DNA of 64,000 nt from Gammaproteobacteria bacterium (GTDB taxonomy: Bacteria; Pseudomonadota; Gammaproteobacteria; Pseudomonadales; JAUIET01): NCBI GenBank assembly GCA_030429735.1, contig JAUIET010000009.1:1-64000 (forward strand), in the 5' to 3' direction. Below are positions 1 through 2,593 of the stretch, one piece after another; positions within the stretch are counted from its first letter, which is position 1, and the number at the start of each line of letters is the position of its first letter. The position numbers and the translations under genes were made by a program. The notes below the pieces were generated by a model. That model was not told the origin of the DNA, made no database searches, and saw only the letters and a program-made list of their open reading frames with translations.

Positions 1-172
1 AGGCAAGTGCGGCGACGACGACAAAGGCGACGGTGAAGGCAAGTGCGGTGAAGGCAAATGCGGCGGCGACGACAAAGGCGACGGTGAAGGCAAATGCGGT
101 GAAGGCAAATGCGGTGGCGATGACAAGGGCGACGGCGAAGGCAAATGCGGTGAAGGCAAGTGCGGCGGCTAA
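1..172 (+). CDS. hvfA: HvfA-like EGKCG-repeat copper-binding RiPP precursor (C-terminal part)
   Basis: The gene is open at the left edge; only its last 56 codons are visible, ending in TAA. They are almost wholly Gly, Lys, Cys, Asp and Glu. The visible part holds three 17-residue units, each with two EGKCG motifs, so six complete motifs plus a GKCG cut by the edge. In Haemophilus HvfA, EGKCG cysteines are oxidised by a DUF692 multinuclear iron enzyme to an oxazolone/thioamide pair that binds copper. The next two genes are exactly the expected DUF692 and DUF2063 partners, which makes the assignment firm. The N-terminal signal peptide usual in this group lies outside the window. Copper binding is inferred from the family; nothing in the sequence proves the metal. 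Confidence 0.85.
   Translation, partial: GKCGDDDKGDGEGKCGEGKCGGDDKGDGEGKCGEGKCGGDDKGDGEGKCGEGKCGG
14..166 (+). repeat. Three in-frame 51-bp tandem repeats in hvfA
   Basis: Units run 14-64, 65-115 and 116-166. Each encodes a 17-residue block of the form GDDKGDGEGKCGEGKCG; the first unit has Asp in place of the opening Gly. Differences between units are mostly third-position changes (GGC/GGT, AAA/AAG, GAC/GAT), so the peptide is kept while the DNA drifts. The array probably continues left of the window. Confidence 0.9.
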
Positions 173-195
173 ACATCGCCAGCGCTTGAACGCAG

Positions 196-217
196 AACCG
201 CCGGCTTGCCGGCGGTT
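196..217 (+). promoter_or_regulatory. Hairpin between hvfA and hvfB
   Basis: Positions 196-205 (AACCGCCGGC) and 208-217 (GCCGGCGGTT) are perfect complements, giving a very GC-rich stem 24 bases after the hvfA stop. Only three T residues follow (216-218), so it is not a typical intrinsic terminator. A role in stabilising the hvfA message or damping read-through into hvfB, so that peptide exceeds enzyme, is inference. Confidence 0.6.
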
Positions 218-238
218 TCTGCATCTGCGAGTACACGA

Positions 239-1087
239 ATGACAAACGCAATCAAGGGTGCAGGCCTGGGCTTGAGAAGAGACTTCTCTGCGCGCCTGTC
301 AGATATTGCCTCGGAAGACGTTGATTTTTTTGAAGTAGCGCCAGAGAACTGGATTGGTATAGGCGGCCGCTTCAAAAAGCAATTGCATAGCTGCACGGAA
401 CGGTTTCCGCTGACCTTGCACGGCCTGTCACTGGACATCGGTGGCGTGGCACCGCTGAATGTGTCTTTGCTTAACGATATTAAGCACTTTATGGCGGAGT
501 ACAACTGCAGTTTGTATTCTGAGCACCTAACCTATTGCAGTGATCACGGTCAGCTCTATGACCTGATGCCAATACCGTTCACCGCGGAAGCAGTTCATTA
601 CGTGGCTGCACGCGTTCGCCAGGCACAGGATATACTCGAGCGTCGTATTGCCCTGGAGAACGCCTCTTATTACGCTGCACCCGGCCAGGAAATGACTGAG
701 CTTGAGTTTATAAATGCGGTGATTGCCGAAGCAGATTGTGACTTGCTGTTGGATGTGAACAACATTTACGTCAACAGCATCAACCATAACTACGATGCTG
801 AGACCTTTCTGTACGGTTTACCTGTTGATCGAGCTCATTACATTCATATTGCAGGGCATTACGTTGAAGCCGAGGATCTACGCGTGGATACGCACGGAGC
901 GGACGTTATTCACCCGGTGTGGGAGTTGCTCCGCCTGGCCTACCAGCGGTTTGGTGTGTTGCCCACGTTGCTGGAACGAGACTTTAACATTCCACCAATC
1001 CCGCAACTGTTGAGCGAGGTGCAAAGTATTCGTGCAATGCAAGAAGCAATGAGCGCTGATTCTACCCAAACTGCAGGGCGAGGCTGA
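239..1087 (+). CDS. hvfB: MNIO family peptide-modifying oxidase (DUF692, HvfB/BufB-like)
   Basis: This is a TIM-barrel multinuclear non-heme iron oxidase of the DUF692 family, expected to modify Cys residues of the upstream repeat peptide in the cytoplasm. Family landmarks appear in order: HGLSLDIGG near residue 61, SEHLTY near 96, LENAS near 140, LLDVNN near 172, HIAGH near 203-207, DTHG near 217 and LLERD near 246. These supply the His, Glu and Asp metal ligands. The product is 282 residues, the usual length. The ATG at 239 was chosen because the frame can extend only to a TTG inside the hairpin at 206. The operon order hvfA-hvfB-hvfC is standard, with 28 bases to the next start. Confidence 0.9.
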
Positions 1088-1115: not shown

Positions 1116-1880
1116 TTGAGCCTGTCATTGGCGCAAACCCACGACTTGCAAACCCAGCTTACTGACCATATCCGTGATCCTGAGGTGAATCCGCCGCCGG
1201 CAGGCATTGAAGAGCGCCGCCTTAAAATCTACCGAGACCTTTTTTACAATAATATTGAGGGGTTTGTGCGCCGTGGCTTCCCGATTACACGTAAGCTTTT
1301 CGCAGATGAACACTGGCACGCCCTGATTCGCGATTTTATGCGAGGCCATGCGTGCTCCACTCCGTACTTTACTGAAATCACGCAAGAGTTTGTTCACTAC
1401 CTGCAATCTGACAGGGCAGTGCATGCCGAAGAGCCTGCTTTTCTGGCGGAACTTGCGCACTACGAGTGGGTTGAAATTGCCCTGGATCTTGCCGATATAG
1501 ACTTGAGCTCAATCCCACATCAGCGTGATGGGGATCTGTTAGCCGGGCGGCCGCTGGTGTCGCCTCTGGCCATGTGCCTGGCCTATCAATTCCCGGTGCA
1601 TGAAATAGGGCCGGGTTTTGAACCCGCTGAGGCGCCTGAGCAGCCGACGTTTCTGATTGTGTACCGCAATCGTGATGATCAAGTAAAGTTTATGCACAGC
1701 AACCAGGTGACGCTTCGGATGCTGGGCTTGCTGGCCGAAAATAGCTGCGCGAGCGGGCGAGATGCGCTATTGGCATTGGCCACTGAAATGCAGCATTCTG
1801 ACCCTGAGCAGCTGGTCGCCAGTGGCCAGATTACGCTGGATAAATTACGGCGGCTTGATATTATCTTAGGTACACACTGA
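1116..1880 (+). CDS. hvfC: DUF2063 partner protein (HvfC/BufC-like)
   Basis: The product is 254 residues of the DUF2063 family, which pairs with DUF692 enzymes and is thought to recognise the precursor peptide and present it to the oxidase. The N-terminal half has the family's RLKIYRDLFYNNI and GFPITRKLF segments, followed by ELAHYEWVEIALDLAD; the C-terminal half is a separate small domain. The start is most likely TTG at 1116, because AGGGAGGA at 1101-1108 lies about eight bases upstream; an earlier TTG at 1095 would place that Shine-Dalgarno inside the gene. It closes the copper-peptide operon; the next gene (mlaA) starts 26 bases later and may be co-transcribed. Confidence 0.85.
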   Translation: MSLSLAQTHDLQTQLTDHIRDPEVNPPPAGIEERRLKIYRDLFYNNIEGFVRRGFPITRKLFADEHWHALIRDFMRGHACSTPYFTEITQEFVHYLQSDRAVHAEEPAFLAELAHYEWVEIALDLADIDLSSIPHQRDGDLLAGRPLVSPLAMCLAYQFPVHEIGPGFEPAEAPEQPTFLIVYRNRDDQVKFMHSNQVTLRMLGLLAENSCASGRDALLALATEMQHSDPEQLVASGQITLDKLRRLDIILGTH

Positions 1881-1906
1881 AAAAGTGGTCTTATAAGGAC
1901 ATGAGT

Positions 1907-2593
1907 ATGCGTACGCCATTTCTCCTTCTCGTACTGGTCATGGCTTGGGCTCAGCCCCTGAGCGCCAGTGAGTCTGATCCGTGGGAAGGGTGGAACAGGA
2001 AAGTTGATGCGTTCAATCAATTCGGGGATCGCTGGGTAGTCAAGCCGGTTGCAACCGCGTATGAGTTTATTACGCCGCAGATCGTGGATGATGGGGTCAC
2101 TAATATGTACCGCAATATTCGTGAACCGATCACGATTATCAACGATCTGCTGCAGCTCAAGATAAAGAAAGCCGGTGTGGATACCGGCCGGCTTTTATTG
2201 AATTCTACGGTAGGATTGCTCGGCTTTTTTGATGTAGCATCCAAGGCCGGTTTGCAGCGCCAACCAGAAGATTTCGGTCAAACCCTCGGTACATGGGGGG
2301 TTCCTCCAGGGCCTTATGTGGTGCTGCCATTGATCGGCCCCAGCAATGTTCGTGATGCCTTCAGCCTGGTGCCAGACTCGTTTAGTAACCCGATCGCCTA
2401 CATCGACCAGGAATGGGTCCGCTATTCAACGGTGGCAGGTTATTACCTGGATTTGCGCGCCAATGCACTGGATGTTGAAGAGCTGGTTACCGGCGATGAG
2501 TATGTCTTTGTGCGCGATGCGTATCTGCAAGATCGCGAATATCAGGTCAAAGACGGTGCTGTTGAGGACGATTTTGGCGATGAAGACTTCTAA
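1907..2593 (+). CDS. mlaA: MlaA (VacJ)-family outer-membrane lipid-asymmetry protein
   Basis: MlaA extracts mislocalised phospholipid from the outer leaflet of the outer membrane and passes it to the MlaC/MlaFEDB retrograde system. Family blocks are DPWEGWNRKVDAFN near residue 24, the NMYRNIREP region, GLLGFFDVASKAGL and DFGQTLGTWGV with GPYVVLPLIGPS after it. The length of 228 residues is normal. The start at 1907 is preferred over 1901 because AAGGA at 1895-1899 is then seven bases away. The signal peptide lacks the lipobox cysteine normally present in MlaA, so this protein may be released by signal peptidase I. From memory, Pseudomonas has vacJ next to the same PilZ and RssB-type genes. 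Confidence 0.92.
   Translation: MRTPFLLLVLVMAWAQPLSASESDPWEGWNRKVDAFNQFGDRWVVKPVATAYEFITPQIVDDGVTNMYRNIREPITIINDLLQLKIKKAGVDTGRLLLNSTVGLLGFFDVASKAGLQRQPEDFGQTLGTWGVPPGPYVVLPLIGPSNVRDAFSLVPDSFSNPIAYIDQEWVRYSTVAGYYLDLRANALDVEELVTGDEYVFVRDAYLQDREYQVKDGAVEDDFGDEDF

Follow-up and report, generated by a model that had tools for sequence, protein, structure and literature searches.

How is a cysteine-rich repeat that runs off the edge of a contig to be completed, and what does its gene encode? The stretch analysed here, called the window, comprises 64,000 nucleotides (nt) from a gammaproteobacterial genome (assembly GCA_030429735.1; contig JAUIET010000009.1, positions 1 to 64,000, forward strand), and its first 172 nt encode tandem EGKCG motifs. 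A sequence-only reading had proposed that this repeat belongs to the precursor of a ribosomally synthesised and post-translationally modified peptide (RiPP). Joining the repeat to the rest of its gene and comparing it with related precursors led us to conclude that the locus is very probably an hvfABC operon making an exported, multi-site copper-binding RiPP. The two parts of the gene, its neighbours, the structure of the array with a block duplication, the turnover of spacers and the conservation of a promoter are all visible in the DNA.

The repeat belongs to a precursor gene split between two contigs

2..172, + strand: 3' end of an EGKCG-repeat precursor gene (HvfA-type); NCBIfam NF050137 over cut-off at window 35-121 and 86-169
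1..87, + strand: assembly overlap inside the repeat, an exact 87-nt match to the C15 end

An open frame spans window positions 2-172 and closes with TAA; it is the 3' portion of a precursor gene truncated at the contig edge, and the window starts at the first base of contig C4, one of the 24 in this genome. Elsewhere in this genome an EGKCG-type repeat occurs only at the start of contig C15, where positions 1-587 on the minus strand supply the missing 5' portion. The identity of the C15 end (minus strand) with window bases 1-87 is the sole exact suffix-prefix overlap in the 10-399 nt range, and the reading frame is preserved across the join. In the one congener genome searched (locus L008), abhydrolase, hvfA, hvfB, hvfC and mlaA follow one another on a single contig, and an abhydrolase gene is likewise the upstream neighbour of the precursor on C15. 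Overlap and synteny together support the C15-C4 join well. Read leftward across it, as the sequence-only reading had suggested, the joined minimal gene, 672 bp long, encodes a 223-residue protein with 21 EGKCG motifs and no Cys outside them. The overlap falls inside the repeat and the copy number of the array is therefore a minimum: the true number of blocks in the living cell equals or exceeds the assembled count, and 21 motifs is a lower bound.

The precursor starts with MANNSLKPLAAAVGAAFIATSFVPTASAATDPFVAQELSAGYDLANKGA, a signal peptide followed by a leader (PF..QELSAGYDL). The Sec-type signal peptide MANNSLKPLAAAVGAAFIATSFVPTASAA, a feature on which the sequence-only reading had staked its proposal, was judged by eye and is kept in the congener. 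A loose leader pattern, PF..L..GY, was present in 64 of the 80 precursors compared below, which is a lower bound because rule-chosen starts shorten a few leaders. The family model NF050137 ('HvfA family RiPP metallophore') gave nine matches on the C15 part, with 138.9 bits against a cut-off of 19.5.

The array mixes paired and single motifs and contains a duplicated block

The tail of the array in the window holds seven KCG motifs, arranged as a part unit, two full 17-residue units and EGKCGEGKCGG at the end, and the DNA repeats there with a period of 51 bp (3.3 copies, 92% matches). The regular 51-bp array described from the window alone is thus real but local, since the full gene also has 11-residue units, a motif triplet and a 135-bp block. 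Consecutive motifs form runs of 3,2,2,1,2,2,1,2,2,2,2 along the array, made up of eight 17-residue two-motif units, two 11-residue single-motif units, a leading extra motif that gives the triplet and a terminal pair. Two EGKCG motifs per 17 residues therefore describes the eight units and fails for the single-motif units and the triplet; the idea of strictly paired sites at a fixed spacing does not survive these exceptions, nor the pair-to-pair lengths of 14 residues upward in relatives. The supposed GGDDKGDG spacer is acidic here as claimed, but its first G belongs to the motif, and the spacer proper has 7 residues (GDDKGDG or DDDKGDG) or 6 (DDKGDG).

On C15 the repeat consists of three tandem 135-bp copies with 98% matches. 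From gene base 190 to the C15 end (L006/C15 1-397, minus strand) the 135-bp period is exact, giving a 262-nt exact repeat in which each block encodes 17+17+11 residues. The absence of mismatches between the copies indicates a very recent duplication, and the same absence of drift makes them uninformative on selection. The expectation that the array changes size by gain or loss of whole units held up: the DNA itself shows block gain, and the congener array, intact on one contig, has 13 motifs against at least 21 here.

Maturation partners and proposed mechanism

239..1087, + strand: hvfB, multinuclear non-haem iron-dependent oxidative enzyme (MNIO; DUF692) maturase; Pfam PF05114 337.2 bits; NCBIfam HvfB equivalog NF003818 431.1 bits, cut-off 360
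1116..1880, + strand: hvfC, DUF2063 and RiPP recognition element (RRE)-type partner; Pfam DUF2063 and NGO1945_C; NCBIfam HvfC equivalog NF050145 313.5 bits, cut-off 142

The assignment of the repeat to an MNIO-modified RiPP precursor with DUF692 and DUF2063 partners is supported in that both genes adjoin it and exceed the equivalog cut-offs, as HvfB and HvfC. The genome has no PF05114 match other than hvfB; hvfC starts with TTG, with GGAGGA ahead of it. Modification, copper binding, export and stress induction are inferred from characterised relatives, and the mechanism is drawn by analogy from HvfA, FonA and MmrA (PMC13097082, PMC13419390, PMC12538549). HvfC would present the precursor to HvfB, which would oxidise the motif cysteines to 5-thiooxazoles in the cytoplasm with the loss of four hydrogens each. 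The product would then be exported and, by binding Cu(I), buffer it in the periplasm. By this analogy each Cys is most likely converted to a copper-binding 5-thiooxazole: upon co-expression every EGKCG repeat of HvfA and FonA came to carry a 5-thiooxazole, and copper tests were made on FonA and gonophorin (PMC13097082). Relatives are described as binding copper and as being induced by it (PMC13097082, PMC12452194). Whole blocks of 45 residues and five motifs may be gained or lost through recombination or slippage, which would change the length of the array and also homogenise the spacers.

Spacers turn over between species around a conserved motif

We compared 80 precursors, all different, comprising frames with three or more KCG from 58 of 80 named genome loci and 21 of 25 relative loci (L008-L032) together with the window gene; start codons of relatives were picked by rule. 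The remaining 22 genome loci, some with a contig end nearby and some with differing motifs, and four relative loci had no such frame and were dropped. EGKCG accounted for 548 of the 660 five-letter motifs ending in CG. The window gene had the most motifs, 21, followed by three precursors with 14, but its size is not a record because a printed survey lists larger precursors (PMC12452194). Run lengths were mixed in 44 of the 80 arrays, and pair-to-pair length was mostly 15-17 residues. In the 41 arrays that hold at least three spacers, identity was 0.64 for spacers of one array and 0.16 for those of different species, and 500 permutations never came up to the observed value; the congener has GDKAEG where the window species has GDDKGDG. 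Mean charge between motifs, a crude measure that includes some motif letters, was negative in 31 arrays, zero in 8 and positive in 41, so that the acidic spacer, taken from the window as a trait of the peptide, is not a conserved one. The spacers, acidic or basic, are thus homogenised within species and replaced between them; given their varying charge and length, what is conserved is the motif and its usual pairing rather than acidity or exact spacing.

Some precursors stood apart in composition. Those from Methylococcaceae (L116 3073-3888, L117 1220 onward, and L123) carry EMSCG, EGACG and DGSCG beside EGKCG, as well as stretches rich in Met, and contrast with the regular arrays of other precursors. 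At L058 3395-3958, EGKCG arrays flank both sides of the stretch DADGDGSITKEEF, a putative pair of EF-hands judged by its resemblance to the EF-hand signature.

Drift between units had been read as a sign of selection on the peptide. Among the eight 17-residue units, eight of the nine columns that vary fall at third positions (binomial p about 0.001 for an expectation of one third, a p-value that serves only as a guide because tandem copies are not independent), and eight of nine changes are synonymous against 20% for random changes. That reading thus stands for the 17-residue units and has nothing to draw on in the drift-free 135-bp copies. Comparison of the leader and first three motifs with the congener (65 codons) gave nonsynonymous (dN) and synonymous (dS) divergences of 0.083 and 1.04, respectively, and this is the better indication of selection.

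A two-box promoter precedes many EGKCG precursor genes

Transcription probably starts at an extracytoplasmic function (ECF)-type promoter that lies 81 nt ahead of the precursor ATG, with the boxes GAAACT-N16-GTCATAGT (C15:641-668, minus strand; -10 box GTCATA). Among 74 sequences of 150 nt or more lying upstream of precursors, 20 have G[AG]AAC[TC] and GTCA at spacing 16, and no other spacing in the range 5 to 40 occurs in more than two; a looser pair, G[AG]AAC and GTC, is found at spacing 17 in 29 and at each other spacing in three or fewer. A matrix built from 17 sites placed 29 of the 74 above the 99% background level, training sites included. The motif was first spotted by eye in the very sequences used for counting, and the spacing scan serves as the control. 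Judged from these sequences, many gammaproteobacterial EGKCG precursor genes share a putative two-box promoter of ECF type with constant spacing.

The boxes are similar to the E. coli sigma-E -35 element GGAACTT (as cited in PMC2893595), and C15 encodes an RpoE equivalog (320.6 bits, cut-off 236.15). Upstream of rpoE, G000 lacked a matching site, and G001 had a single weak one. Identification of the sigma factor through autoregulation was tried and given up, with none of loci L130-L159 having a convincing promoter, and within the 109 hvf loci ECF-like genes gave nine weak tblastn matches. The Neisseria sigma-E consensus (GTMAGBWTT, 12-13 nt, CGTCTAAH; PMC2893595) differs from the promoter here and was discarded as a model. 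RpoE2 controls the H. influenzae cluster, which is induced by hypochlorite (PMC7907618), sigma-F controls DUF2282-type clusters in Caulobacter (PMC3511200), and sigma-E controls an operon in Neisseria (PMC2893595) that, on our reading of that paper with PMC13097082, would be an EGKCG cluster. Of the 18 papers matched by a literature search for the GAAACT and GTCATA boxes, none of the 8 listed concerned these operons, judged by title.

An mlaA-like gene and a hairpin in the probable operon

1901..2593, + strand: mlaA-like outer-membrane lipoprotein gene; Pfam MlaA 245.7 bits; 20 nt past hvfC
about 193..222, + strand: G+C-rich hairpin followed by T-rich sequence in the precursor-MNIO gap; 170-238 folds at -28.6 kcal/mol, z -3.25

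The mlaA-like gene falls below the cut-off of the NCBIfam mlaA equivalog (118.8 against 375). A tblastn match to this MlaA occurred in 30 of the 109 hvf loci, many of which have short flanks; 27 matches lie in the same orientation, no more than 509 nt from where the hvfC match ends, and the other three at 1.5-2 kb. A Pfam scan of the next frames after hvfC, covering 51 of 59 (all but L060, L063, L065, L072, L097, L101, L104 and L110), identified 19 DoxX and 13 MlaA proteins. When mapped on a FastTree phylogeny of 106 HvfB proteins, the mlaA label requires 10 changes and the promoter label 16, both counts being inflated by short flanks and missed sites; the window HvfB clusters with that of its congener and then with those of Halieaceae, Spongiibacteraceae and comparable marine lineages. 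The literature search found no paper containing both MlaA and MNIO. A wider picture, which we put forward tentatively and regard as somewhat doubtful, is that many Gammaproteobacteria make the EGKCG copper peptide from a sigma-E-like promoter of the envelope-stress response, that in one large branch it shares an operon with the outer-membrane lipid-asymmetry protein MlaA, and that metal capacity is tuned over the short term by gain and loss of multi-motif blocks.

In the hairpin stretch (170-238) one of 200 shuffles folds as well as the native sequence. The counterpart in L008 is near-identical (z -4.63), and terminator-like hairpins occur in 7 of 69 precursor-MNIO intergenic regions. The hairpin may be a partial terminator that keeps the precursor above the enzyme.

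Alternative explanations

Several results weigh against an hvfABC operon for a fully modified copper-binding peptide. The HvfA equivalog NF050188 was not reached by the 195-residue C15 part scanned (72.7 bits, cut-off 95). AlphaFold2, run on the C15 part with a shallow alignment and with unmodified residues in the model, gave no confident fold (mean predicted local distance difference test (pLDDT) score 43.2 with 15 sequences, 39.1 alone); the published beta-helix model was therefore not reproduced. doxX is not next to hvfC, where mlaA occupies the slot; the genome beyond that slot was not searched for it. The promoter pattern was not enriched genome-wide, with 4 matches against 6 reversed in G000 and 1 (that of hvfA) against 2 in G001, which would mean either a very small regulon or an overly stringent pattern; scoring of sigma-factor loci L130-L159 with the hvfA-site matrix reached 12.6 at best, compared with 14.0-24.2 for the training sites. 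Finally, a FonA substrate with one EGKCG stayed unmodified in vitro while one with two was modified (PMC13097082), so the two isolated motifs in the 11-residue units may also stay unmodified. This last point, along with the fact that modification is invisible in sequence, favours a peptide that is exported and binds metal through plain cysteines in the manner of a metallothionein, or is modified at only some motifs such as the pairs. We consider this improbable in view of the adjoining HvfB and HvfC and of the complete modification of HvfA and FonA on co-expression (PMC13097082).

The array, or its 135-bp block, could also be partly an artefact of assembly, with copies collapsed or wrongly multiplied at the contig break; the exact periodicity indeed continues to the C15 end, just where the contigs break. 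The intact congener array, the arrays in 79 other precursor frames and the frame kept over the overlap make this unlikely, though less so than a peptide of unmodified cysteines, and confine the doubt to copy number. We give about the same low weight to a main role in oxidative or envelope stress defence with copper secondary: the ECF-type promoter, the mlaA neighbour and the hypochlorite induction of the H. influenzae cluster through RpoE2 (PMC7907618) speak for it, whereas relatives bind copper and are copper-induced (PMC13097082, PMC12452194). The copper-binding hvfABC product thus remains the preferred reading of the locus.

Comparison with known systems

The exact block duplication, together with a congener that differs in spacer and motif number, indicates that these metallophores resize by whole blocks with the motif held fixed. 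The isolated-motif units offer a natural test of whether pairing is required for modification, and the common promoter makes regulation of the operon testable across Gammaproteobacteria. Motif counts in databases may be too low, as the precursor repeat broke short-read assembly.

Among the closest known systems, Buf_EGKCG/oxazolin type 1 (PMC12452194) has the same 17-residue repeat with two EGKCG motifs in precursors of 31-506 residues and up to 58 Cys. The present precursor differs from it in its 11-residue single-motif units, its 45-residue higher-order block and its mlaA in place of doxX, which is frequent but not required in Buf_EGKCG/oxazolin clusters; a beta-helix has been proposed there, and none appeared in the models here. 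The H. influenzae HvfA/oxazolin system (PMC13419390, PMC13097082) shares the hvfA-hvfB-hvfC order, the signal peptide and EGKCGEGKCG, but has six Cys in three motif pairs and a doxX-like hvfX, compared with at least 21 Cys and mlaA here. Microbulbifer MmrA (PMC12538549) likewise has two-Cys EGKCG cassettes and is accompanied by MNIO and DUF2063 only; its five to eight Cys and Lys-rich spacers are unlike the window precursor. Fontiphorin FonA (PMC13097082) carries seven modified EGKCG-type sites, as 5-thiooxazoles, in an array without 17- or 11-residue units. This kind of array is thus already in print (PMC12452194), and the window gene is an ordinary member of the family. What is new here lies in details: the full gene, which combines single-motif units with an exact block duplication, the species-wise turnover of spacers, the common ECF-type promoter and the mlaA neighbour.
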